A DNA stretch of 32,137 nucleotides from Acidobacteriota bacterium (GCA_019347945.1 JAHWKK010000033.1:1-32137); one strand, 5' to 3'. Counted from the stretch's first letter, positions 817-27,912 are shown. Notes: a model not told the origin generated them from the sequence alone. A program made the numbers and translations.

Positions 817-844
817 CAGGAACCAGGAGTCAGGATCCAGGATT
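817..844. repeat. heptamer array A, 4 x CAGGANN
   Basis: Four tandem 7-bp units with the variable pair reading AC, GT, TC, TT. The array starts two bases beyond the trmB start codon. It is the left arm of an inverted pair with 936-963. The 91 bp between the arms (845-935) shows no coding potential but contains the palindrome GAGACGTCTC at 901-910. Confidence 0.85.
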
Positions 845-935
845 CGGTGAAAGGCCTTCAGGAGGAGGGTCGAGGCCCGGTTGATCGGAAGACGAGGTGA
901 GAGACGTCTCATCGAGGCTCTCGCAATTTCCTCCG

Positions 936-963
936 GATCCTGAATCCTGGCTCCTGATTCCTG
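936..963. repeat. heptamer array B, 4 x NNTCCTG
   Basis: Right arm of the first inverted pair. Read on the minus strand the units are CAGGAAT, CAGGAGC, CAGGATT, CAGGATC, closely mirroring array A. It ends three bases from the stop codon of the di-iron protein gene at 967. Confidence 0.85.
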
Positions 964-966
964 CCT

Positions 967-2229
967 TCACCAGCCGTAGCTGCCGCCGCCCGCCTGAGGT
1001 TCTTCGCGGCCGAGAAGCATCGCCGAGTACTTTTTGAAGTCGTCCGTGTCCAGGTAGTAGTCGGGAAGCCGCGGCTTGAGATAGGCGAGATACTCCTCGC
1101 CTGGGATCGGCTTGCCGCCGGATGTGATCAGTTCTCCGTAGACGTCGTACGGCATCAGGACGATCTCCTCCATGCCGCGAGAGCGGAAGAATCTCGTGTC
1201 CGGAGCCATCAGGAGATCCTCCGGCTTCACGCCGCGCTGAGTTTCCTGCGTGTCCTGAACTTCACGAACGAGACTTCTCGCATCCGGCGCGGTGATCTCT
1301 TTCACGAGGGCCTGAACGATCGCGACGTTGGTCAGCTCGATCAGCTCGCGGACCTCGTTGTGGTACTCCGACTGGGCCGTGCCGTTCTTCCGGTCCTTGA
1401 AACCGAATGCGACGGCGGTCTCCCCGCCATGTTCGTTGCCGAACATCTCGAGACCTCTGGGAATCCAGACGTTGAGATGTCGCTGAATGTCCTCGATCGA
1501 GAAGTCGCCCTTGCCTTCAGTTGCCATGACGGCGATGTCGCGAAGGAACACACGACCCGATCCGATGTGGAATCCCTCTTCCGAGAGCATCGGTCCCATC
1601 GACCGGGCCATCGGAGCATAGGAGAAGACCTTCTGCATCTCGAGCTGGTATTTACCGACTAGGTCGATGACTGTGGCGAAGACGACGTTGTCGAGGAAGT
1701 TGTTGAACGGAATGTTGAAAGCGTCGAGGACGTGCTGTCCCAGCTCCATGGCGAGAAGCTCGTCCATGGTGTCTTTCGCGACATCGGGATGTCCCGGCTT
1801 TTTCCAGCTCGGGTCGGCGGACAGGACCCAGAACATCTGATAGCCGTGCCTCAGCTCTTCGGCCATGATGCGGAGCACCGAGACTTTCATCTGATCGGTC
1901 GGTGCTTTCTCGAGGGTGAGGCGGTGCTGCTGGATCGAACCGAGCTCCGTCGAGGCCTGCGCCCGAATGATGTCGCGGGCGGAGTAGAACATGTTTCCCG
2001 TCATCTCACCGGCGTTCTCGATTTTTGGTTTGCCGGTGAAGCGTCCGTATTCGATGTCGTCGCTCTTGAGCTTGCCCACCTTTGCGACGAGCTCGAAAGG
2101 GGTCTGGCTTGCGAAGTACTTCGTCCAGTTTCGGAGCAGAAAATCGAGCTCCGGGAAGTTCTTCTTCTGCCACGAGACGATCGCCTCGTGGTATTTGGGT
2201 TCGATCCTGTCGGTTTCGTATCGTGCCAA
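967..2229 (-). CDS. PaaA/BoxB-like ferritin-fold di-iron protein
   Basis: The 420-residue protein resembles the phenylacetyl-CoA epoxidase subunit A / benzoyl-CoA epoxidase subunit B family, which use a carboxylate-bridged di-iron centre to activate oxygen on aromatic CoA thioesters. Two ExxH iron-ligand motifs are visible: E125-x-x-H128 in AEELRHG, and E218-x-x-H221 in SEEGFHIGSG. E95 is a candidate further ligand. The start is TTG at 2229, supported by a strong AGGAGGG at 2234-2240. None of the usual partners (paaB-E, a reductase, an acyl-CoA ligase) are nearby, so the substrate cannot be inferred; a stand-alone oxygenase or an unrelated di-iron function is possible. It is divergent from the HD-GYP gene. 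Confidence 0.75.
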   Translation of the reverse strand: MARYETDRIEPKYHEAIVSWQKKNFPELDFLLRNWTKYFASQTPFELVAKVGKLKSDDIEYGRFTGKPKIENAGEMTGNMFYSARDIIRAQASTELGSIQQHRLTLEKAPTDQMKVSVLRIMAEELRHGYQMFWVLSADPSWKKPGHPDVAKDTMDELLAMELGQHVLDAFNIPFNNFLDNVVFATVIDLVGKYQLEMQKVFSYAPMARSMGPMLSEEGFHIGSGRVFLRDIAVMATEGKGDFSIEDIQRHLNVWIPRGLEMFGNEHGGETAVAFGFKDRKNGTAQSEYHNEVRELIELTNVAIVQALVKEITAPDARSLVREVQDTQETQRGVKPEDLLMAPDTRFFRSRGMEEIVLMPYDVYGELITSGGKPIPGEEYLAYLKPRLPDYYLDTDDFKKYSAMLLGREEPQAGGGSYGW

Positions 2230-2273
2230 ATCACCCTCCTATGGAATCGCGACGGTCATAACGCATTGAGATC

Positions 2274-2289
2274 CGGGAGCATTCTCCCG
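2274..2289. promoter_or_regulatory. inverted repeat in divergent intergenic region
   Basis: CGGGAGCATTCTCCCG forms a 6-bp stem with a 4-base loop between the divergent di-iron and HD-GYP genes. No T-run follows, so it is better read as a possible operator or 5' leader hairpin of the HD-GYP gene than as a terminator. Confidence 0.35.
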
Positions 2290-2330
2290 AGATCGCAATG
2301 GAGGATCAATCATGTCAGAATGAAGGACCA

Positions 2331-4205
2331 ATGGTCTCGATCGTCGTTCTGCATCCACCTGATCTGGACCTCTCCGGAATGGAGGGTTCGAAGAACGTGC
2401 AGAGGACGACGACCCTCGACGAGAGCAGACTCAACGGCGCCCAGCTGGTAGCCGTGATTCGAGGGAAACCCCCGGCGCGCCTTCCGGATGATGCCGTCAT
2501 CGTGCAGGTGGGCAATGGACCGGCCGAGAGCTTCATCACGCTGCCGGAGGATTCGTCGCCTGACGTCATTCAGTCGGCTGTGCGAAGCGCGGTTCGCGCA
2601 GCGGCCGATCGACAACGCACCAGGGAGCTCGAGAAGAAGCTGGCTGCGCGAACGGCCGAGCTCGAGGAAATCAATGAGGTCGGGATGGCGCTGTCGACCG
2701 AGCGCGACCACGACGTGCTTCTCGACATGATCCTGCGCAAGACGCGGGAAGTCACGCGATCCGACGCCGGCTCGCTCTACCTGCTGGATCAGGTGGCCGA
2801 TGGAGAGAGCGTTCTTCGATGGAAGGTTGCACAGAACGATTCGCTCGAGGTCGACTTCGACGAGCAGATTCTTCCCGTCACCAAGAAGAGCGTCGCGGGA
2901 TTTGTCGCGCTCACCGGCGAGACTCTGGTGATCGACGACGCGTACGAAATCCCGGAGGACGTCGAATATGGATTCAATTTCTCGTTCGACAAGGCGACCG
3001 GATACCGGACGAAATCGATGCTCGTCGTCCCGATGAAGAATCAGAAGAACGAGATCACGGGCATCCTCCAGCTGATCAATCATCGCCTTCCCGACGCACC
3101 CAGGAGCCCGCTGAATGCGGACAACGTCGACGCGAGGGTCGAAGAGTACGGACCGCATACGATCAGCGTCGCACGGTCACTCGCCGGACAGGCGGCGGTC
3201 GCAGTCGAGAACAACCTTCTCTACGACTCGATCGAACGTCTGTTCGAAGGGTTCGTCACTGCGGCGGTCACCGCGATCGAGCAGCGAGACCCGACGACGT
3301 CCGGACACTCGTTCAGAGTCGCGGATCTGACCGTCGGGCTCGCACAGGTGCTGGACCGAGTCGAGACCGGACGCTTCCGGGAAATCCGCTTCACGCCGGA
3401 ACAGGTCAAGGAGATCCGTTACGCGTCGCTGCTCCACGACTTCGGCAAGGTCGGCGTCCGCGAACAGGTGCTCGTCAAGCAGAAGAAGCTCTACCCGATG
3501 CATCTCGATCTCATCCGCTCCCGGTTTCACTACCTGGTGAAGTCGACGGAAGCCGAAGTTCTGCGAAGGCATTTCGAGGCGATCTGTAAGGGGAAGAAGG
3601 TCGTCGATGAAGCAATGCTCGAGCAGCTCGACGCCGAGCTGAAGTCGGAGATCGACGAGCTCCTCCAGTATTACGAAAGCGTGGCGAGCTCCAACGAGCC
3701 AACCGTACTTCCGGAGGGCAACTTCGAGATCCTGCAGCAGATCGGAAGCCGGGAGCTCGTCGATCCGCTCGGACAGAGGCAGACACTCCTCTCTCCCGAG
3801 GAGGTCCGGGTTCTCTCCATCCGGAAGGGAAGCCTCGACAACGACGAACGGAAAGAGATCGAGAGCCACGTCACACACACCTTCCACTTCCTGTCGAAGA
3901 TCCCGTGGACGCGCGAGCTCAGCCGCGTTCCGGAGTATGCCTACGGGCACCACGAAAAGGTCAACGGGAGGGGATATCCCAGAGGCCTCGAAGGAGAGTC
4001 GATTCCGATTCAGAGCCGGATGATGACCGTCTCCGACATCTACGACGCGCTCACGGCGAAGGACCGGCCGTACAAGAAGGCGATACCGACCGAGCGTGCG
4101 CTCGACATCCTCAACATGGAAGTGAAGGACGGACTGCTCGACGAGGATGTCGTCGATCTCTTCGTCGAAGCAAAGGTCTACGAAAAGGGTACGTTACGCC
4201 ATTGA
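2331..4205 (+). CDS. GAF and HD-GYP domain protein, probable c-di-GMP phosphodiesterase
   Basis: About 624 residues. From the N terminus: a degenerate receiver-like segment (about 1-85), a helical, probably coiled linker (about 90-125), a GAF sensor domain (about 130-290), then HD-GYP. The metal-binding HD is at residues 369-370 (LLHDFGKVG), and the HHExxxGxGYP signature begins at 540 (HHEKVNGRGYP). HD-GYP enzymes hydrolyse c-di-GMP. Between the HD and HHE parts lies a charged helical insertion of roughly 110 residues, longer than in canonical HD-GYP domains. ATG at 2331 is preferred over the upstream in-frame ATG at 2298 because AAGGA lies just before it. ispH follows closely on the same strand. 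Confidence 0.88.
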   Translation: MVSIVVLHPPDLDLSGMEGSKNVQRTTTLDESRLNGAQLVAVIRGKPPARLPDDAVIVQVGNGPAESFITLPEDSSPDVIQSAVRSAVRAAADRQRTRELEKKLAARTAELEEINEVGMALSTERDHDVLLDMILRKTREVTRSDAGSLYLLDQVADGESVLRWKVAQNDSLEVDFDEQILPVTKKSVAGFVALTGETLVIDDAYEIPEDVEYGFNFSFDKATGYRTKSMLVVPMKNQKNEITGILQLINHRLPDAPRSPLNADNVDARVEEYGPHTISVARSLAGQAAVAVENNLLYDSIERLFEGFVTAAVTAIEQRDPTTSGHSFRVADLTVGLAQVLDRVETGRFREIRFTPEQVKEIRYASLLHDFGKVGVREQVLVKQKKLYPMHLDLIRSRFHYLVKSTEAEVLRRHFEAICKGKKVVDEAMLEQLDAELKSEIDELLQYYESVASSNEPTVLPEGNFEILQQIGSRELVDPLGQRQTLLSPEEVRVLSIRKGSLDNDERKEIESHVTHTFHFLSKIPWTRELSRVPEYAYGHHEKVNGRGYPRGLEGESIPIQSRMMTVSDIYDALTAKDRPYKKAIPTERALDILNMEVKDGLLDEDVVDLFVEAKVYEKGTLRH

Positions 4206-4292
4206 AACGTGGCCCGGAGCTGCGGGGGAACCTGCAATGTTTCTGATACGTCAGAGGTTGGAAAGGACCGACGAATCACGAAAGGCTGCAGA

Positions 4293-5156
4293 TTGAAGGT
4301 CAAACGCGCAGAAAAATACGGCTTCTGTTCCGGCGTCCGCATTGCGGACATGAAGGTCAAGCGTTTCGCCCGGAAGGGCGGAACCGGCTCGATCCTCGGG
4401 CAGGTCGTCCATAACGAACGAGTCGTCCAGGAGATGGCTGATCTCGGCGTGTCCACGGTCGATTCGATCGAGGAGACGACGGGCCCGACAATCGTCTTCT
4501 CTGCGCACGGGGTGCCCCCTTCCTTTCATGAACGTGCGACGAAGACAGGCCTCGAGGTTCTCGATACCACCTGCAAGTTCGTCTACGACATCCACAGGGA
4601 GTCCGACACCGCACGTGACGAAGGATGGCACCTGGTATTCATCGGTGACCCGAATCATCGCGAGGTGATCGGCTATACGAACGACCTCGATCCGTCGCGC
4701 TACCACATTCTCTCGACGGTCGAGCAGGCCGAGGCGATCGACTGGAGCCGATATCCGAAGATCAAGGTCTTCTACCAGACGACGCTCAACGCGGAAGAGT
4801 TCGAGCCCGTCGTCCGGGTGATCGAGGCGAAGGGAGCAGAAACGGCTCGCGCGGATACGATCTGTTACGCCACCAAAGAAAATCAGGAGGCTGCAAAGGC
4901 TCTGGCCGGTGATCCCGAGGTCGACGTCATCGTCGTCGTCGGTGGCAAGAAGAGCGCGAACACGCGGCACCTCTATGAGATCTGCCGGGCGATCAAGCCG
5001 TCCTATCTGGTTCACGAGGTCGAAGACATTCAGCCGGAATGGTTCGAAGGCGCGAGCGTGGTCGGCCTCACGGCCGGCTCATCGACGCCGGACTACATGA
5101 TCGACGAAGTCGAGGCGAGCATCACGGGTGTACGGGAGGAAGTGGAAGCCTCATGA
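4293..5156 (+). CDS. ispH: 4-hydroxy-3-methylbut-2-enyl diphosphate reductase IspH (LytB)
   Basis: Last enzyme of the MEP isoprenoid pathway: a [4Fe-4S] enzyme converting HMBPP to IPP and DMAPP. The three cluster-binding cysteines are at residues 12 (YGFCSGV), 94 (DTTCKF) and 191 (ICYATKENQ). VVHNERVV, SAHGVPP and VGLTAGSSTPD are further family motifs. The frame is open back to GTG at 4209, but homology begins at TTG 4293, which has AAAGG at 4281-4285; this gives 287 residues, normal for the family. The stop overlaps the next start (ATGA), indicating translational coupling with the DUF3108 gene. The essential MEP step makes this a housekeeping marker. Confidence 0.95.
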   Translation: MKVKRAEKYGFCSGVRIADMKVKRFARKGGTGSILGQVVHNERVVQEMADLGVSTVDSIEETTGPTIVFSAHGVPPSFHERATKTGLEVLDTTCKFVYDIHRESDTARDEGWHLVFIGDPNHREVIGYTNDLDPSRYHILSTVEQAEAIDWSRYPKIKVFYQTTLNAEEFEPVVRVIEAKGAETARADTICYATKENQEAAKALAGDPEVDVIVVVGGKKSANTRHLYEICRAIKPSYLVHEVEDIQPEWFEGASVVGLTAGSSTPDYMIDEVEASITGVREEVEAS

Positions 5157-5953
5157 AGAGAAGACTGGCGTTTCTGGCGGCGATCGTCATCGCTGCCAGC
5201 ATGGCGGTGCATGCCGCTCCGAAGACCGTTCCCCTCGACGAGGAGCTCAGGTACGACTGGCGTCTCAGAGGACCCCTTTCGTGGGTCGCGGCGATCGCGT
5301 TTCCCACGTCCGGAACCGGGAATCTCAGGACGAGCGTTTCGCCGCGCGACACGGTCGAGACCGAGCTCACGATTCGCGCCAGGAAAGGCTCGGACTTCTA
5401 CCGGTACGAATCCGAGATCGAGCGAGAATCGATCAAGACACTGATGTCGTATCACGGCTACGCGTGGGGTGACAAGGAGAAGGAGGAACGGACATTCTTC
5501 GACTACGTGAAGAAGGTCGCCCGGATCTTCAAGCGCTCCTACAAGAAGGAAGACGAGACGAAGGAAGAGGCGATCCCGGGACGTCCTTTGCGGGATGTCC
5601 TCACTGGGATCTACTATCTCCGAATCAACTCCGACGCCTTCACGAAACCGGTCAACGCCGAGATCTACTCGGACGGGACGATGTACCCGGTGGTGTTCAA
5701 GCCCCTCGGTGTGAAATCGATGAAGTTCGAAGGAGCAAAGGGCACCGTTCGAGGATTCGAGATCACCGCACGGCCGGGAGACGAAAAGAGGTGGCCGGGT
5801 GGAGTCGAGGTCTGGTTCACCACCGATGAGCGGAAGATCCCGGTTCAGATCTCGATCAATCAGACTCTTGCGAATCTCCAGCTCGATCTGGCCTCGATCG
5901 AGAAAACGGGAAGCGCTCCGAAGCCGACGGCCTTCGTCCCTCCCGGACGCTAG
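5153..5953 (+). CDS. secreted DUF3108-like protein
   Basis: 266 residues starting with a clear Sec signal peptide: KRR, a hydrophobic core of about 15 residues, then a likely AHA|AP cleavage near residue 21. The rest is beta-rich and resembles DUF3108 proteins, which are periplasmic or envelope proteins of unknown function in Gram-negative bacteria. Features include repeated basic and acidic stretches around residues 105-145 and a conserved-looking GVEVWFTTDERKIPV segment near the C terminus. The ATG overlaps the ispH stop, with GGGAGGAAG about ten bases upstream. The stop TAG (5951-5953) is followed after three bases by heptamer array C. Function is unknown. Confidence 0.75.
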   Translation: MKRRLAFLAAIVIAASMAVHAAPKTVPLDEELRYDWRLRGPLSWVAAIAFPTSGTGNLRTSVSPRDTVETELTIRARKGSDFYRYESEIERESIKTLMSYHGYAWGDKEKEERTFFDYVKKVARIFKRSYKKEDETKEEAIPGRPLRDVLTGIYYLRINSDAFTKPVNAEIYSDGTMYPVVFKPLGVKSMKFEGAKGTVRGFEITARPGDEKRWPGGVEVWFTTDERKIPVQISINQTLANLQLDLASIEKTGSAPKPTAFVPPGR

Positions 5954-5956
5954 AAG

Positions 5957-6005
5957 CAGGAACCAGGAAGCAGGAGCCAGGATCCAGGAAGCAGAATCCA
6001 GCAAG
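5957..6005. repeat. heptamer array C, 7 units CAGGANN with decay
   Basis: Units are CAGGAAC, CAGGAAG, CAGGAGC, CAGGATC, CAGGAAG, then the degenerate CAGAATC and CAGCAAG. The array starts three bases after the DUF3108 stop and faces array D. Confidence 0.85.
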
Positions 6006-6032
6006 CAGAGTCAACTTTTTTCACGAGCCTCC

Positions 6033-6070
6033 CCCAGATCTTTCGCCGTCCTTCGGCGGCTCAGGATGAC
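6033..6070. repeat. short hairpin repeat with CTCAGGATGAC tail
   Basis: CGCCG-TCCTT-CGGCG (6044-6058) forms a hairpin and is followed by GCTCAGGATGAC. The layout 'ATC(C/T)TTCG, hairpin, CTCAGGATGAC' resembles a dispersed intergenic repeat I recall from many environmental bacterial genomes; this is recollection, not a search. It lies between arrays C and D. The rest of 5954-6211 holds no gene. Confidence 0.45.
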
Positions 6071-6168
6071 GAGGGGTAGGTTTCTCCGAGAGCAAACATT
6101 CGTCCATGATCGTCGCTTCGCCAAAACACAACATTCGTCATTATTCGCGCGTGCTCCGCCGAGCTCTG

Positions 6169-6209
6169 TCTCCTGAATCCTGAATCCTGAATCCTGATCC
6201 TGTCTCCTG
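6169..6209. repeat. heptamer array D, about 6 units NNTCCTG
   Basis: Units TCTCCTG, three identical AATCCTG, one 6-base unit ATCCTG, and TCTCCTG. It is the right arm facing array C and abuts the dnaE2 stop codon at 6212. Confidence 0.85.
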
Positions 6210-6211
6210 GC

Positions 6212-9200
6212 TCAATGAAAGTCGTGGCTGTCGATTCTCGCGAAATCGAGGACTGGCCAGAATCTTTCGGCACGCAGCGACGGTTGACCCCCTTCCTTCT
6301 GCAGAATCCCTTCGACGATCAGTCCGGGTGAGGTGACAATTGTCGAGCGATTGTCCCGGAAGAGGCTCGGATTGACGATCGCCTGCGCCATTCCGGTCTC
6401 GTCCTCCAGGGTGAGGAAGACGAAACCCTTCCCCGTGGCAGGCCGCTGCCGAACGATGACGGCGCCGGCAGTCCGCACCCGTTTTCCTCCCGGCTCCCGC
6501 AAAAGCTCTGCTGCGGAGAGGACACGCTGACTTTTCAGACTCGACCTCAGATGTTCCATCAGATGAGGGCCCGTCGTGAGCTGCGTCGCATGGTAATCAG
6601 CGACCGTCTCTTCGAGAGCGGACATCTCGCTCAGAGGGGAAGCTCTGAGCGATCGATCGCTCTTCTCGAAGAGCACGCCGGCTTCTCTGGCAACCCGCGC
6701 AACCTGCCACAGCGCGGACCGGCGAGTCTGTCCGAATCCGGAGAGAGCGCCGGCCCATGCGAGCCGGGTCAGCTGATCCTGTCCCGTACGGCATCGCATC
6801 TCCAGATCCTCGATCGATTCGAAGTCTCCGTTCGCACGCGCCTGCTCGATTCTCCGGCCCACCTGCTCGCGCAGACCATTGACGTATCGCATCCCCAGCC
6901 GGACGCTTCCTTCCTCCCATGAGCACTCCCACCCCGATCGATTGACGTCGACGGGAAGGACGCTCACGCCGTGTCGCTGCGCATCCTTGATGAGCGTCGC
7001 GGGGTGGTAGAAGCCCATCGGCCAGGAATTGAGCATCCCGATCAGAAAAGCCGCGGGATGATGAGCTCGAATGTAAGCGCTTGCATAAGCAATCAGCGCG
7101 AAGCTGGCGGCGTGCGATTCCGGAAACCCGTACAACGCAAACGAAGTGATCGACTGGACGATCTGATCCTGTGCCTTGCCGGTGATGCCGTTGGCTTCCA
7201 TTCCGGAGCGGAGCTTCATCTCGATCAGCTGCATCTTCTCGACCGAGCGTTTGAACCCCATCGCCCTACGCAGCTCTTCGGCTTCACCGCCCGAGAATCC
7301 GGCGGCCACCATCGCGATGCGAAGCAGCTGCTCCTGAAAGAGGGGAACTCCGAGGGTTCGTTTCAGGATCGGCTCGAGTGAAGGATGGGGGTACTCGACT
7401 TCTCGCTTCCCCTGGCGCCGGTCGAAGAAAGGATGCACCATGCCGCCGACGATCGGACCGGGTCGGATGATCGCGACCTGAATGACGAGATCGTAAAACT
7501 TTTCCGGCCGGTTTCTCGGAAGCGAGGCCATCTGCGCACGGCTCTCGACCTGAAAAACCCCGACCGTGTCGGCCTCGTTCAGCATCCGATAGACCAGCGG
7601 ATCGTCCTGCGGGAGATGGGCGAGGTCGACCTCGGTTTTCTCGTTCTCCCGGATGATCGGGATCGCGCGCTCGAGCGCGGCCAGCATTCCGAGCCCGAGA
7701 AGATCGACTTTGATGATGCCGAGATCGGCGCAGTCGTCCTTGTCCCACTGAATGACCACTCTGCCGGGCATCGAAGCCGGCTCGAGCGGAACGACCTCAT
7801 CGAGCCTACCGCTCGTCATGACCATTCCTCCCGAATGCTGACCGAGATGGCGGGGAAGGTTCTGGATCCGTTGCCACAATCCGATCAGATGCCGCACACG
7901 TCCGTCGTCCGGATCGAGTCCTGCCGACTGCAGCTCCTTCTCCAGGCCGGTCACGGTTTCGCGGATCTCGCCGAATGTCCACCGGCCGACCTGTTTCGCG
8001 AATCGGTCGATCTGTTCCGGCGAAAAGCCGAGCGCCTTGCCCACTTCCCTCGCTGCGGAACGCTCCCGGTAGGTGATCACGTTGGCCGTCATCGCGGCGC
8101 CACGTTCGCCATATCGGTCGTAGACGTATTGAATCGCGCGCTCACGCTGATCGCCGGACGGAAGATCGAGATCGATGTCCGGCCATTCACCTCTCTCCTC
8201 CGAAAGAAATCGCTCAAAGAGAAGCTCCATCTTCACCGGATCGACCGCCGTGATCGAAAGCGCGTAGCAGACCGCGCTGTTCGCCGCCGATCCGCGACCC
8301 TGAACGAGAATGTTCTCCCGGAGGCAGAACTGAACGATGTCCCAGACGATGAGAAAGTAGCCGGCGAGATCGAGCTTTTCGATCATCGTGAGCTCACGAT
8401 CGATCTGCGCCTGCGCTTTCACGGTCAGCGGACGGAAGCGCGCCCGTGCACCGTTCCAAGTGATCTGCCGCAGATACGACATGGCGGTCTCGCCCGGAGG
8501 AAGAGGGTAGTCGGGGAAGCGATAACCGAGGTTGGCGAGGGTGAAGTCGAGCTCGGAGGCGAGCTCGATCGATGCATCGATCGCATGCGGAAGATCCGAG
8601 AAGAGCGTGCACATCTCCGCGGCGGATCGGACATGCCGCCCTGCATTCTCCTCGAGCAGCGTCCCCGCCGCATCGAGATTCGTTCCATGCCGGATGCACG
8701 AGAGAACATCCGCGAGCTCCCGGTCACCAGGAGCCGCGAAGCGGACGGCATTGGTCGCGACCACCTGCAGCCGGTGATTCCGTGCGATGTCGATCAGCGC
8801 CTGGTTGCGATGCTCCTGTTCCCTCAGATGGTGACGCTGCAACTCGACGTGTACGTGATCCGAGAAGATCGCCTTCAGCTTTCCGATCAGATCGGAGGCG
8901 GCGCCGATGCCACCGTGGCGTAGCGTCCGCGCGACGATTCCATCCGAGCCTCCCGTCAGACAGTGCAGCCCCGACGCGTAGCGTTCGATCATCTCGAGAT
9001 CGAAGCGCGCCTCTCCCTTTTCATTCGCGAGCGCCCCTTCGGTGATCAGCCTGCAGAGATTCCGGTAGCCCTCCCGTCTTCGGACGAGTAGCGACAGCCG
9101 CGCTTCTCCAGCCGCGGATCGCTCCCCGGGGCTCACGAGTCGAAGAGATCCGAGCGGATTCGTCTCGTTCAGAACCAGATCCGCACCGACGAGCGCTCGA

Positions 9201-9505
9201 ATCCCTGCTCGTTTGGCCGCCGTGTGGAATCGCGGCGCACCGTACACGCCATTCACCTCGATCAGCGCCGCCGCCGGCAGTCCTCGGGCAGCCGCATGCT
9301 CGATCAGATCCTCCGGAAGCGACGCCCCTTCGAGGAACGAGAAGGCCGACTGCATTCGCAGTTCGACGTAGTCGCGAGGACTGCCGCGATGCGCCCGCGG
9401 CTTCCACGCGCGCTGGCGCAGCCCCTCCTTCCTCGCACCGGACGAGGCCGTCGGCAGTTTGCCTCCGAGGGTTCGGGATGGTGGTGTTGATGAGCTCTGG
9501 CGCAT
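6212..9505 (-). CDS. dnaE2: error-prone DNA polymerase III alpha subunit DnaE2
   Basis: C-family polymerase that performs SOS-associated mutagenic translesion synthesis together with ImuA and ImuB. The 1097 residues run as PHP domain (about 45-250), polymerase core and a C-terminal OB fold (about 985-1060). Catalytic aspartates lie in PDIDLD (442-447), preceded by GRGSAANSAVCYALS (403-417). The PHP domain has lost its first metal-binding motif: the expected HxH region reads ELRMQSAFSFL. The end DFH matches the usual DnaE2 C terminus. The ATG at 9505 has no Shine-Dalgarno because array E begins seven bases upstream, so a later start near residue 45 is conceivable. It is the last gene of the imu cassette and converges on the DUF3108 gene. 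Confidence 0.95.
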   Translation of the reverse strand: MRQSSSTPPSRTLGGKLPTASSGARKEGLRQRAWKPRAHRGSPRDYVELRMQSAFSFLEGASLPEDLIEHAAARGLPAAALIEVNGVYGAPRFHTAAKRAGIRALVGADLVLNETNPLGSLRLVSPGERSAAGEARLSLLVRRREGYRNLCRLITEGALANEKGEARFDLEMIERYASGLHCLTGGSDGIVARTLRHGGIGAASDLIGKLKAIFSDHVHVELQRHHLREQEHRNQALIDIARNHRLQVVATNAVRFAAPGDRELADVLSCIRHGTNLDAAGTLLEENAGRHVRSAAEMCTLFSDLPHAIDASIELASELDFTLANLGYRFPDYPLPPGETAMSYLRQITWNGARARFRPLTVKAQAQIDRELTMIEKLDLAGYFLIVWDIVQFCLRENILVQGRGSAANSAVCYALSITAVDPVKMELLFERFLSEERGEWPDIDLDLPSGDQRERAIQYVYDRYGERGAAMTANVITYRERSAAREVGKALGFSPEQIDRFAKQVGRWTFGEIRETVTGLEKELQSAGLDPDDGRVRHLIGLWQRIQNLPRHLGQHSGGMVMTSGRLDEVVPLEPASMPGRVVIQWDKDDCADLGIIKVDLLGLGMLAALERAIPIIRENEKTEVDLAHLPQDDPLVYRMLNEADTVGVFQVESRAQMASLPRNRPEKFYDLVIQVAIIRPGPIVGGMVHPFFDRRQGKREVEYPHPSLEPILKRTLGVPLFQEQLLRIAMVAAGFSGGEAEELRRAMGFKRSVEKMQLIEMKLRSGMEANGITGKAQDQIVQSITSFALYGFPESHAASFALIAYASAYIRAHHPAAFLIGMLNSWPMGFYHPATLIKDAQRHGVSVLPVDVNRSGWECSWEEGSVRLGMRYVNGLREQVGRRIEQARANGDFESIEDLEMRCRTGQDQLTRLAWAGALSGFGQTRRSALWQVARVAREAGVLFEKSDRSLRASPLSEMSALEETVADYHATQLTTGPHLMEHLRSSLKSQRVLSAAELLREPGGKRVRTAGAVIVRQRPATGKGFVFLTLEDETGMAQAIVNPSLFRDNRSTIVTSPGLIVEGILQKEGGQPSLRAERFWPVLDFARIDSHDFH

Positions 9506-9512
9506 TTGAAGA

Positions 9513-9547
9513 AGGGATCAGGGATCAGGGATCAGGGATCAGGGATC
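9513..9547. repeat. heptamer array E, 5 perfect AGGGATC units
   Basis: Five identical tandem 7-bp units, left arm of the pair around the first IVP gene. It supplies the last codon and the TGA stop of that gene and ends seven bases before the dnaE2 start. Its unit differs from the CAGGA[AT] units elsewhere but matches its partner array F. Confidence 0.92.
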
Positions 9548-9946
9548 AGGTTGTGAGACGAGGAGAACCCGTCGTTGTCGATTCACGAGTGCGTCGCTTT
9601 CGAGACTCTCGCGAAGTCCGATGAGCATCCTGCCGATTTCTCGTATTTTCTCGGTCAGTACCTCCGCGATCTGAGCAGGCAGATACACTAGATGTTGTGA
9701 AAGTAAAATCTGCGTTTCGATCTCTGCCAGCGACCCGGAGGCAATTGATATAAATCTCAGATATTCTTTGCGGCTGCGACGGCCATTGCCTTCGGCGATA
9801 TTGCTTGGAATCGAAATGGCCGAGCGTCGGATCTGGGCCGTCAGTCCGTAGCACTCTTCCTGTGGGAAAATCGACGTAGCTTTATAGGTCTCGACAACGA
9901 GATCCATCGACTTCTGCCAGACTTTCAGTTCCTTGAATCGACCCAT
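9539..9946 (-). CDS. 23S rRNA IVP-type four-helix-bundle protein (copy 1)
   Basis: 135 residues of the S23/IVP family (TIGR02436-like), small all-helical proteins first known from intervening sequences in 23S rRNA and structurally related to the Avd protein of diversity-generating retroelements; their biochemical function is unknown. The family signature IRRSAISIPSNIAEG is at residues 39-53, with the N-terminal FKELKVWQKSMDLV and a C-terminal REIGRMLIGLRESL helix. The ATG at 9946 has an excellent AAAGGAGAAG at 9951-9960. The TGA stop falls inside array E. It sits between imuB and dnaE2 and is bracketed by inverted heptamer arrays E and F. Base composition looks visibly lower in GC than imuB and dnaE2, consistent with acquisition. 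Confidence 0.9.
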   Translation of the reverse strand: MGRFKELKVWQKSMDLVVETYKATSIFPQEECYGLTAQIRRSAISIPSNIAEGNGRRSRKEYLRFISIASGSLAEIETQILLSQHLVYLPAQIAEVLTEKIREIGRMLIGLRESLESDALVNRQRRVLLVSQPDP

Positions 9947-9975
9947 TTTCTTCTCCTTTCGGTTATTTGCTTTGC

Positions 9976-10031
9976 TGATCCCTGATCCCTGATCCCTGAT
10001 CCCTGATCCCTGATCCCTGATCTCTGATCCC
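9976..10031. repeat. heptamer array F, 8 units TGATCCC
   Basis: Six perfect units, one TGATCTC, then one more perfect unit. It is the right arm for the first IVP gene and ends six bases from the imuB stop. Its unit is the reverse complement of array E's GGGATCA, a variant used by no other pair in the window. Confidence 0.92.
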
Positions 10032-10037
10032 TGCCTC

Positions 10038-11558
10038 TCAGTCATACATCCCGTCGGCAAACCATTTCTCCTTTGTCGAGTCGTAATAGATCCGGTAGAG
10101 CCCGCCGCGTGCGAGCTCGACGTCCCAGTAACTTCGCTCCACCGGATGGTCCGACCACCACCCTTCTTCCAGACGCCACGGTCCCGAAGCCACCCGAACC
10201 GCTCCCTCGATGCGCGACTCCTTCGAGTCGAGCGGGCGAAGTCGCACGGGGCGGGTCTCCCGAGAGGTGTCGAGCTCGAGGATCACCTCGAGCTCGACGG
10301 GAGGGCGGATCGTCCGGACGGTGAGGAGTCCCCGGTGCGGTGCCGGATCCCGCCGGTTCATCGGAGGAGGGGGAGGGTCGAAGGCGACGAGATTGAATCG
10401 TTCGGGAGACCGGCTGTCGACCGTTCGTGGCGAGCCGACCCGCTCGCGGCTGACCATTGAGCTGAGCCGCGCAATCGTCGTTGCGATCCTGTCGGGCGAC
10501 ATCGCGGGCGGACCGAAAAGCGACATCTGCGCGGTCCGAGGCCGGTCCGGATGTGCCGTGAAGAGGAAGCCGGTGACCGGCGCCCCCGGCGGTGTCGCTT
10601 CGAGCTCGAGCCTGACGAAGGTCAGCAGCGTTTTGACCTCTCGAGTCGGAGTCGGCAGCCGGATCGTTCGATCGTGAAAGCCGTCGGGCTCGAGGCGGAG
10701 CGACACCTCGAGAATCCTGCAGGAAAACCCGAGCGACTCCATCCGGCGGCAGAGCCGGTCGAGCGCCGCATTCGCGACGAAGAGAAACGGCTCGAGAGCC
10801 ACCAGCGGCCACTCCAGATCCATCCCCTCGCTGAACTCCGGCGGCGGCACGCGCGGAATGATCGGAGTCGGATCGAATCCTCGTGCGGAACAATGAAGCT
10901 GCCGGCCGGTCTCGCCCAGCCGCGTCGCCACTTCCGCTTCCGAAAGATTCGCGAGCTCTCCGATCGAACGGATCCCCCATCGGTCGAGCGTCCGTCCGAT
11001 CTCGAGCCCGGGATCGAGACGCTCGATCGGAAGCGGCGCCAGGAACTTCATCTCGTCTCCCGGCTCGACGATCGTCGGAGACTCCGGAAGCTCGGCCGCG
11101 ATCCGTGCCGCGAGCTTGCTCGCTGCGATTCCGACCCGCGCGCGGAGCCCTTCCCGTTCCGCCTCGTGCAAAGCCGAGGAGGCGAGCGCGCGCTCCGGAT
11201 GATCCGAACCCGCGTAGTGCCGCTCGAGCCCCGAGATTTCCATGTAAGCCACTCCCGCCGCGCCGTCCTCGACACGGGGAGAAAGACGGGCCGCGACATC
11301 GAGAAGCGCTTCCTGCGCTGCTTTCTCGCAGTCGGCGTCGCGCCCTCGTGCGATGAGGCCGGGGACGATCGCACGCCCCTGGGGAAGCGTCATCCCGGCG
11401 CGCACCCCGAGCACGCGCGCCCGCTTCGAGGCGGCCGCGATGAAAGCGCGCGATCCATTCCCCTCGACGATGGCAACCGTTTCGGTCGCGAGCTCCGGCT
11501 CGCTTCGCAGCCGGGCAGCGAGAGGAAAGAGCGGAACGTAGAAGCAGGCGATTCGCAT
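10038..11558 (-). CDS. imuB: ImuB, catalytically inactive Y-family polymerase-like adaptor
   Basis: ImuB acts as the hub of the DnaE2 mutasome, tethering it to the beta clamp. The 506-residue protein has a Y-family fold at the N terminus (CFYVPLFPLAARL, residues 5-17; AYMEISGLE, 104-112) but lacks the acidic catalytic residues of active DinB/UmuC enzymes, as expected for ImuB. A clamp-binding motif QMSLFG is at 344-349. The C-terminal part (about 370-506) is a proline- and arginine-rich linker plus a tail ending near WDVELARGGLYRIYYD. The ATG at 11558 has no Shine-Dalgarno: array G begins seven bases upstream. It lies between the two IVP genes within the imu cassette. Confidence 0.93.
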   Translation of the reverse strand: MRIACFYVPLFPLAARLRSEPELATETVAIVEGNGSRAFIAAASKRARVLGVRAGMTLPQGRAIVPGLIARGRDADCEKAAQEALLDVAARLSPRVEDGAAGVAYMEISGLERHYAGSDHPERALASSALHEAEREGLRARVGIAASKLAARIAAELPESPTIVEPGDEMKFLAPLPIERLDPGLEIGRTLDRWGIRSIGELANLSEAEVATRLGETGRQLHCSARGFDPTPIIPRVPPPEFSEGMDLEWPLVALEPFLFVANAALDRLCRRMESLGFSCRILEVSLRLEPDGFHDRTIRLPTPTREVKTLLTFVRLELEATPPGAPVTGFLFTAHPDRPRTAQMSLFGPPAMSPDRIATTIARLSSMVSRERVGSPRTVDSRSPERFNLVAFDPPPPPMNRRDPAPHRGLLTVRTIRPPVELEVILELDTSRETRPVRLRPLDSKESRIEGAVRVASGPWRLEEGWWSDHPVERSYWDVELARGGLYRIYYDSTKEKWFADGMYD

Positions 11559-11565
11559 GGTTGAG

Positions 11566-11607
11566 CAGGAGCCAGGATTCAGGAGCCAGGATTCAGGAAC
11601 CAGGATT
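11566..11607. repeat. heptamer array G, 6 units CAGGANN
   Basis: Units CAGGAGC, CAGGATT, CAGGAGC, CAGGATT, CAGGAAC, CAGGATT: a 14-bp higher-order alternation. It is the left arm for the second IVP gene, contributes that gene's stop codon, and begins seven bases from the imuB start. Confidence 0.9.
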
Positions 11608-12134
11608 CAGATTCCGGCGCCAGAGTTAGGTTGAAGTGATTTCCGGAGGCCGTTAAGCATTCGGCCTATTTCACGACAACATTCCATGGCGGGCTCGAGA
11701 TCGGGATCTGGCAGATAGTTCAATCGCGAAGCCAGAATCATTTGAGTTTCGAGCTCGGCGAGTGACCCAAGTGCGATTGATAAATGATTCAGGTATGCCC
11801 CGGTCGAAGATCGCGCATGACCTTCTGCAATGTTTGAAGGAATCGATATCACCGAACGTCGAATCTGAGCTGTCAGTCCGAAAACTTCCTCGCGGGGCAT
11901 TCCTTCAGTCAAGTGATAGATCTCGACTACGAGATCCATCGCTCTTTTCCAAACGCGCAGATGTTTGAAGCTCTTGATTTTTTTCGGATCAAATCCAGCA
12001 TCCCTCACATCTTGCACTCCATTCCAATGCTGGTTCATGAATCTCCACGTCTGATTTCCATCCACACCACGACATTCGATCGTTGTTTCATCGAATCGTG
12101 AATCCTGAGTGTCTTTTGCTGAAGGCCTCACCAT
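11607..12134 (-). CDS. 23S rRNA IVP-type four-helix-bundle protein (copy 2)
   Basis: 175 residues, same family as copy 1 and recognisably similar to it but not a recent duplicate. The core is at residues 54-170, with SFKHLRVWKRAMDLV, the signature IRRSVISIPSNIAEG (91-105), and CREIGRMLNGLRKSL (153-167). The first 53 residues have no counterpart in copy 1. ATG at 12134 is chosen because AAAGGT precedes it; ATG at residue 33 is a possible later start. The frame is open further upstream into imuA antisense-frame sequence, which I do not consider coding. The TGA stop lies in array G. The gene is flanked by arrays G and H and placed between imuA and imuB. Function unknown. Confidence 0.87.
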   Translation of the reverse strand: MVRPSAKDTQDSRFDETTIECRGVDGNQTWRFMNQHWNGVQDVRDAGFDPKKIKSFKHLRVWKRAMDLVVEIYHLTEGMPREEVFGLTAQIRRSVISIPSNIAEGHARSSTGAYLNHLSIALGSLAELETQMILASRLNYLPDPDLEPAMECCREIGRMLNGLRKSLQPNSGAGI

Positions 12135-12149
12135 TTGATTACCTTTCTG

Positions 12150-12198
12150 AATCCTGGTTCCTGAATCCTGGTTCCTGAATCCTGGCTCCTGAATCCTC
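12150..12198. repeat. heptamer array H, about 7 units NNTCCTG
   Basis: On the minus strand the units alternate CAGGATT with CAGGARC, the same 14-bp higher-order pattern as array G. The last unit is AATCCTC, and the array runs into the imuA stop codon. Confidence 0.9.
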
Positions 12199-22350: not shown

Positions 22351-22881
22351 GCCCCGCGAAGCGCGGACGAGCTCTAAAGATCTCGATTCATCCGCCAGTG
22401 AATTTCAGCCTACCGGCATTCTGTCGCCCGCGGGGCGCGGGCTCGACATTCCAGGGGCCCGTGTCTGTCCCCGGCTGAAGACGGGGGCTAAGAACTGTCG
22501 CCGCCGCCGGCGGCTCCTTCAGCTGCGTCCGACTGGAGCGAGCCCGAGACAATATGCCCGTCGTGCCTTATTCTGTCGCCCGCTCCGCGGACTCCAAAAA
22601 GATCTAGCGTGGAGTTCTTACCGAGCCGCGCCTCGCGGGCGACAGACGCTCAAGATTCACATTCACTTTGAATCTCCGGCGATCTCGACCTCCAGCAAGC
22701 CCGCGCAAGCGGGCGAAAGATCTTAGCCCCCGGCTTCAGCCGGGGGACAGGAAGAACGTTCCCGGGAAATCCCGAGCCCGCGCCTCGCGGGCGACAGTTA
22801 CGTCAAGGGCCTCCGGCGGGGCGTGGGCTCGTTCTGGTACACTTTTCCGGGGCAGTGTCGAAATTGGTTGCCCGGGGTGTG
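22351..22881. repeat. mirror-arranged REP-like hairpin cluster
   Basis: No gene. A hairpin CCGCG-AAG-CGCGG (22354-22366) follows the rng stop. Then come eight GC-rich palindromic units. Four start with CTGTC (22421-22444, 22465-22493, 22495-22516, 22573-22590). Four face the other way, three ending in GACAG (22623-22645, 22721-22750, 22774-22797) and one in GAAAG (22695-22719). The first matches the reverse complement of the eighth and the second that of the seventh, so the whole 377 bp is an imperfect inverted repeat centred near 22607. It lies between rng and the amidase gene. Confidence 0.75.
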
Positions 22882-25674: not shown

Positions 25675-27912
25675 ATGAGCCTGCTCGGCCGTCTCGAGGA
25701 CCTCTCGATTCCGGACATCGTTCAGATCGTCTTTCTGAGCCGCCGCACCGGGATGCTGGAGATCATCGATGGGGATCAGAGATGGTGCATCTACTTCAGG
25801 CAGGGTCGCATCGTGGCCGCCGCCGCTCCCGAGGCGGGCAATCTCGGCACCTACCTCCGTCAGCGAGGTCTCGCATCGCCGGACATTCTCTCGAAGCTCG
25901 ACAGCGGAACCCCGGCCGGCGATCTGATTGACGCCGAGCTCATCTCTCCCGAGCAGCTCGGGGAAGCTGCAAAACTGATGATCGCAGAAGTGGTGGGAAG
26001 CCTCCGTGAGAAGGCCAGGGGTGAATTCAACTTCATTCTCAGCGAGACGGTCGATGATCGGATCGACTACGACCCGGACGCGATCTTTGCGGAAGGAGGC
26101 ATCTCTCCGGCCGAAGTGTTCGAGAGCGACGAGAAACTCAGACCGCTGCAGGGGCTCGAGGAGTCCCTGAGGGCCGGAAAAGCTCTGCTACGAGGCGAGA
26201 CGACCGCCGAAAAAGCCAGAGGAATCGGCTTTGGCGAAGAGATCCGGACCCTCACTTCACCCGGCTCCACGGCGGTTCCGGAGACCGCGGGGCGTTCTTT
26301 CGCGCAGGAGGAGCCCGCCTTCGAAAGTGCCGATCGGGACGAACCGGCGTTCGAGGACCTCGGAGAGGACGCGTTCGTCGACGCGCTCCCGGAGACCTTC
26401 ACGGGAAACGTCCCGATTCCGGAGATCCCCGGGTACCGGGCGCCGGTCTTCGAAGCGGTGCCGGAAGTCGAGCCTGAGATCGAGCCTGAGCAGGAGCCCG
26501 AGCCTGAGATCGAGCCTGAGCAGGAGCCCGAGCCTGAGATCGAGCCTGAGCAGGAGCCCGAGCCTGAGATCGAGCCTGAGCAGGAGCCCGAGCCTGAGAT
26601 CGAGCCTGAGCAGGAGCCCGAGCCCGAGATCGAGCCCGGACGGGAGCCCGAGCCTGAGATCGAGCAGCCTCCCCCCTTCGAGACGGTCAGCCCCGAGCCT
26701 CAGGCCGAGCTCGATCTGGAAGATGCGGACCTCGAGGAGGTGGCTGCAGCCGACACGCTGGAGAGCGAGGGGGTTCCGCCTATCGATCAGGTGCAGCTGG
26801 CTCTGGATCATGCGGGAGCGACCGGCGCGCTGCCGCCTTCGTTCGAGTCGTTCCAGAGGCCGAGCCCGGCGGTTGCGGAAGTCGACCGGAACGTAGTCCT
26901 GTTCGAGACGAACCCGATGATTCGCGTCGCTGCGAAGCGAACCTTCGCCGAGGCGGGATACAACCTTTCGCAGTATGGGGTCATCGAGGATGCCGCGGCA
27001 AGGATCGGGCAGCTTCTCACGGCGAACGAATTCTTCGTGACGTTTCTCGACGACTCGCCGGAAGTGGGAAACGCGTCGGTGGAACTGCTGAAAATGATCA
27101 AGAAGAAGAACCGGCACCTTCCGGTCGTGATCGTCGATCCGGAGGCGGACCTCGAGCGCCGGCACGAGGTACTGGAAAAGGGGGCCGAGCTCTACCTGAC
27201 CAAGCCTTCGCAGGCTCATCTTCGGCCGAACATCGCGATGACGAGCCTCAACCGGTTCGGCGACGAGATGCTGCTGTTCTGCCGGAAGGCCATCGAGGAC
27301 TGGAGTGAGCTCGCGCTGACGCTCAGCGACGACGACAAGCGGGTCGGAGCAGCGTTCTACGAGATTGCGGAGAGGGAGAGGTCGGGACGGTCACGAAATC
27401 TGGTCAAACACCTGATCGACGAGCTGTCGAATCCGGACGACATCACGACGGTCGCCGACACGATTCTGCGCCTGGCATCGGGATGGCTCGATCGAGGAGT
27501 CCTCTTCGTCGCATCGCCGGTCCGGTTCATCGGACTGGGGGGGTTCGGGGAGACGGGGACCGGCCGCCCGATGTTCGACCTGGCCCGGCGTCTCTGGATT
27601 CCGCGGGACGAAGATTCGGTCCTTCGCGATGTCGCGACCACGGGCAGATCGCACCGGGGAAAGATGAGACGAACCCCGACTAACGTTAAACTTGTCGAGG
27701 GCATGGGGAACCGGGTTCCTTCGGAGGTCATCGTGATCCCGATTGCGGACGGAGGAGAAGTGGCCGGTATTCTCTACGGAGACAACGGAGGGCAGAGGAT
27801 GCCTATGGGTGACATGAACGGGCTCGAGTTCTTCATCGAACAGGCCGGGCTCGCCTTTCACAACGCCGTTCTCGCCAATGCTCGGAAGAAGGGAATCGAC
27901 TGGAACGAATGA
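25675..27912 (+). CDS. DUF4388 (PATAN-like) scaffold with [10 protein letters not shown] repeats, receiver-like and GAF-like domains
   Basis: 745 residues. An N-terminal DUF4388/PATAN-type domain (about 1-140, [29 protein letters not shown]) is followed by a disordered acidic linker. The linker includes six copies of [10 protein letters not shown] or a close variant (about 266-325). A receiver-like domain follows (about 400-510), with VLFETN replacing the usual acidic pair but LDD and LTKPSQ retained. A helical segment and a GAF-like domain (about 580-735, ending [21 protein letters not shown]) complete it. DUF4388/PATAN proteins are linked to two-component signalling and surface motility in several phyla. 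Its stop overlaps the CheY start (ATGA), so it belongs to the chemosensory operon. The exact role is unknown. Confidence 0.8.
26470..26664 (+). repeat. 30-bp in-frame tandem repeat
   Basis: Five identical 30-bp units (26470-26619), one diverged unit (26620-26649) and a half unit encode [10 protein letters not shown] in the linker of the DUF4388 protein. The identity extends to synonymous positions, which points to recent expansion. Copy number could vary by multiples of ten codons without breaking the frame. Confidence 0.95.

Follow-up and report, generated by a model that had tools for sequence, protein, structure and literature searches.

Results

Four inverted pairs of heptamer arrays

We analysed a stretch of 32,137 nucleotides, hereafter the window, that corresponds to contig C33 of an Acidobacteriota genome (3.72 Mb, 49 contigs, 99.65% complete). 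The window contains eight arrays of CAGG-type 7-bp units. These form four inverted pairs: A/B, C/D, E/F and G/H. The pattern CAGGANNCAGGA is matched 24 times in the window, compared with 0.11 matches expected by chance. Genome-wide, three-unit matches number 636, and only 1 is found with a reversed control. Going by gene names assigned from sequence, E/F and G/H occupy both gaps of a putative imuA-imuB-dnaE2 operon. None of the window elements has a transposase gene inside it.

Arm A (817..844, plus strand) reads CAGGAAC CAGGAGT CAGGATC CAGGATT and is immediately outside the start of a minus-strand trmB-like gene. Arm B (936..963, minus strand) begins right behind the stop (TGA) of its right-hand neighbour, a minus-strand gene. 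Read inward, its units are CAGGAAT CAGGAGC CAGGATT CAGGATC. The original prediction, made from the window alone, described A and B as nearly the same four units in the same order. The first two variable letters do match in order. However, no unit is identical in register (AAC AGT ATC ATT in A; AAT AGC ATT ATC in B) and every unit pair differs, C for T, at the last base. Hence, the likeness was overstated. Arm C (5953..6009, plus strand; units AAC AAG AGC ATC AAG) begins right at the TAG stop of the plus-strand gene before it. Arm D (6169..6209, minus strand) has units AGA (ATC) ATT ATT ATT AGA. Between them, the spacer (6010..6168, no strand; pair p41 of the genome) carries a dispersed core repeat common to 24 of 49 genome pairs. 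Neither A/B nor C/D encloses a gene. C/D had been left out of the original prediction and does not fit a general rule of matched pairs, since C and D have no unit-level match (pair 41, score 0).

Arm E (9513..9550, plus strand) comprises five CAGGGAT-type units and adjoins the dnaE2 start. Arm F (9975..10033, minus strand) comprises eight such units, begins 4 bp past the imuB TGA stop and contains a perfect 38-nt complement of E. Tandem GGGATCA, said to be private to this pair, indeed occurs nowhere else in the window, but single GGGATCA words do. The unit is not private genome-wide; about 44 AGGGATC arrays were present in the fetched stretches. In arm G (11566..11611, plus strand), which adjoins the imuB start, CAGGAGC and CAGGATT alternate and are followed by CAGGAAC. 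In arm H (12146..12197, minus strand), which abuts the imuA stop codon, CAGGATT alternates with CAGGAGC or CAGGAAC. The 14-bp alternation proposed for G and H is therefore present, and the two arms are 98% complementary across 46 nt. In short, the arrays lie where they had been placed, while the claims of unit privacy and of A/B likeness needed correction.

Two further repeats were noted in the window. At 22421-22797 there are two nested G+C-rich inverted repeats, with arms of 42 nt and 34 nt that are 209-293 bp apart and bear no relation to the heptamers. At 26469-26665 there is a 30-bp tandem repeat of 6.6 copies, CGAGCCTGAGATCGAGCCTGAGCAGGAGCC, in a probable coding location.

A four-helix-bundle gene inside the matched pairs

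One complete PF05635/TIGR02436 gene lies inside E/F and another inside G/H, the pairs whose arms are near-perfect. Members of this family are 23S rRNA-intervening-sequence proteins (S23, or rRNA-IVP) and form a four-helix bundle. The gene, missed in the original prediction, identifies the element. Pair quality in the window follows the same division, being excellent for the S23-bearing pairs and poor for the gene-less ones. The S23 gene of E/F (9539..9946, minus strand; 135 amino acids; PF05635 E=3.4e-39) has a ribosome-binding site, AAAGGAGAAGAAA, ahead of its ATG. Its final codons and stop fall within arm E. Of the solved structures, the closest is the S23 pentamer XCC0516 of Xanthomonas (2GSC; homologue E=5e-26). 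The S23 gene of G/H (11607..12134, minus strand; PF05635 E=6.2e-37) encodes at most 175 amino acids, its start codon being uncertain, with the domain at 11649-11966. Its stop lies at the inner edge of arm G. The transcript of E, the S23 gene and F is predicted to fold into a hairpin whose stability far exceeds that of shuffled sequence (z=-7.0). The loop of this predicted hairpin would hold the ribosome-binding site and the gene.

All five PF05635 genes of the genome lie inside matched inverted arms, and the five pairs have different units: CAGGGAT, CAGGAGC/CAGGATT, GAAGAGT, CGGTAGC and a GGGCAC-based repeat. One of the five units is six bases long and comes with a longer repeat. The S23 gene on contig C48 is frameshifted and split across two frames. 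For four of the main heptamer families of the genome, one member that uses the family's unit carries S23. Further families were seen with units GAAGAGT, GAGGTTG, CGGTTGC and TAGGGAT (G000:C16:44413, G000:C48:1508, C11:7912 and C32:13096).

Arm pairs across the genome

An exhaustive edge-pattern search of the genome returned 149 array starts. Arms were read from 69 stretches and the window, where 158 arrays merged into 145 arms. Among arrays with periods of 5-11 in the fetched stretches, 180 have a period of 7, three a period of 8 and one a period of 6. Neighbouring arms less than 1.1 kb apart are strongly polarised: 49 are plus then minus, 3 minus then plus, 4 both plus and 2 both minus. Hence, units read inward from both ends (49 inward pairs versus 3 outward). 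The spacers of the pairs measure 35-980 bp.

Only two of the 49 pairs carry S23, and in the remaining 47 the arms match modestly. For these S23-less pairs, arm similarity was 0.69, compared with 0.56 for shuffled partners (p<1e-4). Both arms agree in CAGGG or CAGGA class in 47/49 pairs. When shuffling was restricted to the same class, the DNA alignment test gave 0.69 versus 0.65 (p=0.0016). A test of unit composition within class was weaker (p=0.07). We conclude that the overall excess is mostly the difference between the two classes, with a smaller excess left within class. Longer spacers in this genome do not go with a poorer match between arms (Spearman 0.04).

Dispersal and insertion position

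The gene-less copies on contigs C34 and C40 (G000:C34:8083-8388 and G000:C40:8532-8957) have 298 bp in common, made up of arm, core and arm. Their cores are ~98% identical and their arms less so. Beyond the outer arm edges, the copies are no longer homologous. The core repeat of gene-less pairs, CTCGTCATTCTGAGCCCGGCGGAGC...GCGAAGAATCTGGGCGGGGGATCGTGAGTCAC...AGATCCTTCGCCGTCCTTCGGCGGCTCAGGATGACGAG, is REP-like and occurs in either orientation. With ORFs called mechanically, 38 of 51 arms that face a gene 3' end begin 1-8 bp past the stop codon (median 4), and the median distance on the start side is 65 bp. No target-site duplication was detected; flanks share 3.06 bases, compared with 2.98 (sd 0.11) when shuffled.

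The sequence next to the arms was also inspected. Arms in the genome are usually 2-5 bp from a stop codon. The four bases ahead of arrays are strongly purine, approximately GAAG before CAGG. Array units elsewhere often contain TAG or TGA, as in TAGGGAC and TGAGTGC. Given such units, and arms so close to stop codons, arrays may have the stop codon itself as their seed.

Arms change, come and go together at orthologous loci

We compared orthologous loci between species. The first lies between genes for an ABC ATPase and a permease and is filled by an S23 gene in eight species of a sister family; orthology was assigned from DNA similarity over both flanks. The S23 genes form one group in the tree (support 99/94), which includes two rows from genome G020. 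The arm words are GAGTGCT, GAGTGCT alternating with GAGTACT, GAGGACT, GAGTCCT, GGGTGCT and GAGTACT, and each species has the same word in its left and right arms. Mean normalised match was 0.82 within species, compared with 0.62-0.64 between species. In a strict test, the opposite arm of the same species outscored the same arm of every other species in only 6/16 cases, because GAGTGCT is common to several species; the means remain apart. Some routes of template switching should invert the spacer, but no inverted spacer was seen at this locus. Filled sites measure 478-538 bp from the ATPase stop to the permease start and have both arms in all eight species. Empty sites, in four relatives that include the window genome, measure 18-67 bp and have neither arm. 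No comparable empty sites came from Nostoc plasmids, where no second plasmid matched.

The second locus is the gap between imuB and dnaE2. Five species have an S23 gene with arms, of units GCAGAAC (two species), GCAGAAG, TAGAACG and TTGAATG. In two species the S23 gene has neither arm, and one species has a gene-less CGCAGAT inverted pair. Arm match was 0.73 within species, compared with 0.33-0.39 between species. As at the ABC locus, the S23 genes of these species fall together in the tree. In a tree with few columns, the S23 gene of E/F belongs to another subfamily than the imuB-dnaE2 S23 genes of relatives. Hence, tentatively, the gap has been filled at least twice. A four-helix gene in this gap of the SOS mutasome operon was seen in many species of the order and belongs to at least two subfamilies (loci: window 9539-9946 and 11607-12134; L257, L258, L260, L266, L267, L261 and L262). 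Such recurrence may mark a hot spot or else a functional link to translesion synthesis. In one genome, an ORF resembling an IS200/Y1-type transposase takes the place of S23 in the gap (L256, G001:C13:20000-25500).

The original prediction proposed to look for strain differences that alter both arms at once; between species, such differences are found at both loci. The expectation that a pair behaves as a single element is borne out at the ABC locus, where both arms are present or both absent. The element is gained or lost whole, usually starts near a stop codon, and is dispersed with its arms. Both arms change unit sequence together through speciation.

S23 loci across phyla

A scan of 84,980 species genomes supplied the 80 loci closest to the E/F protein. 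Another 30 loci came from relatives, and loci of additional relatives and of cyanobacterial plasmids were included as well. The loci were chosen by similarity to the window protein, come mostly from metagenome-assembled genomes with one genome per species, and were compared with simple alignment scores. They span Planctomycetota, Chloroflexota, Fibrobacterota, Bacillota, Spirochaetota, Bacteroidota, Pseudomonadota, Verrucomicrobiota, Acidobacteriota and Cyanobacteriota. With one Chryseobacterium/Kaistella cluster set aside, 78 of 93 usable loci have matched inverted flanks far beyond shuffled sequence. The best period is 7 for 67 left and 69 right arms of these 78. Among all 93 candidates, the true partner was strictly the best in 65 cases (expected 1), and the mean arm score was 25.1 for true partners compared with 9.4 for permuted ones. 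Within the Chryseobacterium cluster, 12/28 S23 loci have matched inverted arms. Hence, the predicted excess of within-pair over between-pair similarity, modest in S23-less pairs, is overwhelming in S23-bearing pairs across phyla.

Ten S23-positive relatives contain 33 period-7 arrays in 400 kb, compared with 0 in 400 kb of ten S23-negative relatives; other periods are rare in both samples. This suggests that S23 presence is tied to period-7 arrays, in a comparison where seven of the ten S23-negative relatives belong to one genus. Three S23-positive genomes (G008, G020 and G034) had no period-7 array in the sampled stretches. Counts of CAGGRNN in relatives were set aside as misleading, because the reversed control also matches heptamers of the CAGGACT type; units are lineage-specific.

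Plasmids 1 and 2 of one strain, Calothrix brevissima NIES-22 (L223 and L224), both carry an integrase-S23 gene block. On the first, TAGGGTG heptamer arms flank the S23 gene. S23 matches in phage were limited to three records, all of a single Bacillus phage that has an Avd-like gene.

Discussion

Pairs as single elements

The original prediction held that the two arms of a pair are copied or homogenised together, so that the pair is one element. The inward polarity of pairs in the genome supports this. Our preferred reading, which we consider probable though by a moderate degree, is that each arm pair is one element of inward inverted ~7-bp arrays around an S23 gene or a short core, maintained as follows. 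The arms would form a hairpin, either as a cruciform or in single-stranded DNA at the replication fork, and would pair as a stem in the transcript. Units of one arm may then be expanded or replaced by slippage, 7 bp at a time. Template switching across the hairpin, or short-tract conversion, would copy the change into the opposite arm. As an outcome, arms would diverge fast between elements and remain complementary inside one. The S23 protein may help its own hairpin to move or to remain stable, and gene-less pairs could be non-autonomous derivatives. The S23-bearing intervening sequences (IVSs) of 23S rRNA would then belong to this kind of element, at a ribosomal site. We infer the hairpin, the homogenisation by template switching, the aid from S23 and the non-autonomy of gene-less pairs from the behaviour of the arms.

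The arms of inverted repeats are known to be homogenised by template switching, which is best documented over short spacers (PMC8604942). Hence, spacers of 35-980 bp count against this route. Also counted against our reading are an arm match that does not fall with spacer length, the lack of spacer inversion and of target-site duplications, the 47 of 49 pairs that have no S23, and the three S23-positive genomes whose samples had no period-7 arrays.

A broader proposal goes further. Elements of S23 and paired, rewritten heptamer arrays would form a transposase-free class that spans phyla, with IVSs as a special case. An S23 pentamer would act on its own hairpin, gene-less derivatives would spread with the same arm unit, and insertion would be directed to stop codons. 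We regard this extended version as slightly harder to accept than to doubt.

Alternatives to the proposed linked copying of arms

Could selection on an RNA stem alone keep the arms alike? Compensatory substitutions would then maintain a structure for RNase III-type processing, or for insulation of the S23 gene in its operon, and no arm would be copied. The highly stable stem predicted around the S23 gene is as expected, as is the position of the whole gene inside the stem at most S23 loci. Furthermore, the S23-bearing IVS of Coxiella is excised by RNase III (PMC4990558). However, compensation one base at a time does not account for tandem 7-bp words and 14-bp alternations that stay alike in both arms while the words turn over between species, nor for the common design of gene-less pairs whose spacers differ greatly. 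We consider stem selection alone to be unlikely, although it is the best of the alternatives.

An ordinary IS or MITE, moved by an unrelated transposase, might have terminal inverted repeats that happen to be heptamer arrays, the arms matching because insertion was recent. Filled and empty sites occur, copies end at the outer arm edges and 24/49 spacers belong to one repeat family, all of which suit mobile DNA. Yet there is no signal of target-site duplication, and arms change together where the S23 gene is vertically inherited. In addition, arms diverge faster than the core, the opposite of what is expected for recognition ends. This explanation seems to us improbable, and more so than stem selection.

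In a retroelement similar to diversity-generating retroelements, S23 would be the relative of Avd and a reverse transcriptase would rewrite both arms from one RNA template. S23 and Avd share a homologous four-helix-bundle fold, and Avd models do match weakly, below their curated cut-offs (bAvd, 31.7 versus 40 bits; DivGenRetAVD, 40.1 versus 80 bits). Unlike Avd systems, the 99.65% complete window genome has no match to RVT_1 (PF00078), and many S23-rich relatives have none either. Because the genome has no member of this family, reverse transcriptase is not required and we rejected this route as highly implausible. Equally hard to sustain is independent microsatellite slippage of G-rich heptamers on both intergenic sides, with unlinked arms oriented by neighbouring gene ends: such arrays are over-represented in some bacteria (PMC4692102) and arms do abut gene ends, but the uniquely best partners, the species-specific unit changes common to both arms and their joint presence or absence refute it.

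Implications for S23

The structure of S23 has been available since 2006 and we know of no catalytic function for the protein. If the broader proposal is correct, S23 gains a biological context and the heptamer repeats of many genomes are explained. Three puzzles may be one: what the widespread four-helix protein S23/IVP does, where rRNA intervening sequences come from and why bacterial intergenic DNA has an excess of 7-bp repeats. If so, an action of S23 on heptamer hairpins would be directly testable. The elements would also offer a natural system for concerted evolution of inverted repeats over hundreds of base pairs.

Comparison with known systems

Among the open-access journal papers searched, none joins S23 genes to inverted heptamer arrays. 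Lineage-specific intergenic 7-bp arrays are known as the TAACTGA heptamers of Beggiatoaceae (PMC4679880), and heptamer arrays occur in Geobacter too (PMC2700814). Unlike the window pairs, TAACTGA arrays are nearly all direct, with no reported link to S23 (PMC4679880). REP/BIME elements, which go with RAYT transposases, and MITEs resemble the window elements as dispersed intergenic inverted-repeat units that have no transposase gene of their own. As for IS elements and MITEs, the inverted ends move with the unit. The ends differ in being variable heptamer arrays, rather than fixed palindromes, and no target duplication was seen.

Closer still are the heptamer pairs of Rehm et al. 2015 (PMC4692102). 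Xanthomonas genomes each have 70-75 convergent GGGAATC pairs, to which no function was assigned, and Nostoc has GGGGA(C/T)T arrays as well. Those authors read the pairs as quadruplex-forming repeats (PMC4692102). Both sets consist of G-rich 7-bp tandem arrays that are intergenic and close to gene ends, and the 49 inward pairs reported here have the same close convergent arrangement. Unlike for the window elements, Rehm et al. name no gene inside pairs (we found no mention of S23 or a four-helix protein) and describe no co-variation of arms.

The nearest known kind is the IVS of 23S rRNA, in which a terminal stem, cleaved by RNase III, encloses an S23 ORF (PMC4990558). In Coxiella, the stem is 28 bp long. 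At the start of S23, the GACAGAT heptamer is repeated in tandem, two or three times depending on the strain, and the RNase III site is at the first repeat (PMC4990558). As in the IVSs of Coxiella and Leptospira, E/F and G/H have a PF05635 gene in a loop closed by complementary terminal inverted repeats (38 nt and 46 nt, respectively); A/B and C/D have no such gene. Unlike IVSs, the window elements lie between protein genes, in the imuB-dnaE2 and imuA-imuB gaps rather than in 16S or 23S rRNA. They are also present as many dispersed copies, most of them S23-less, with arm units that are element-specific and change together. Hence, we file the window elements as a variant apart, to which IVSs are the nearest known kind.
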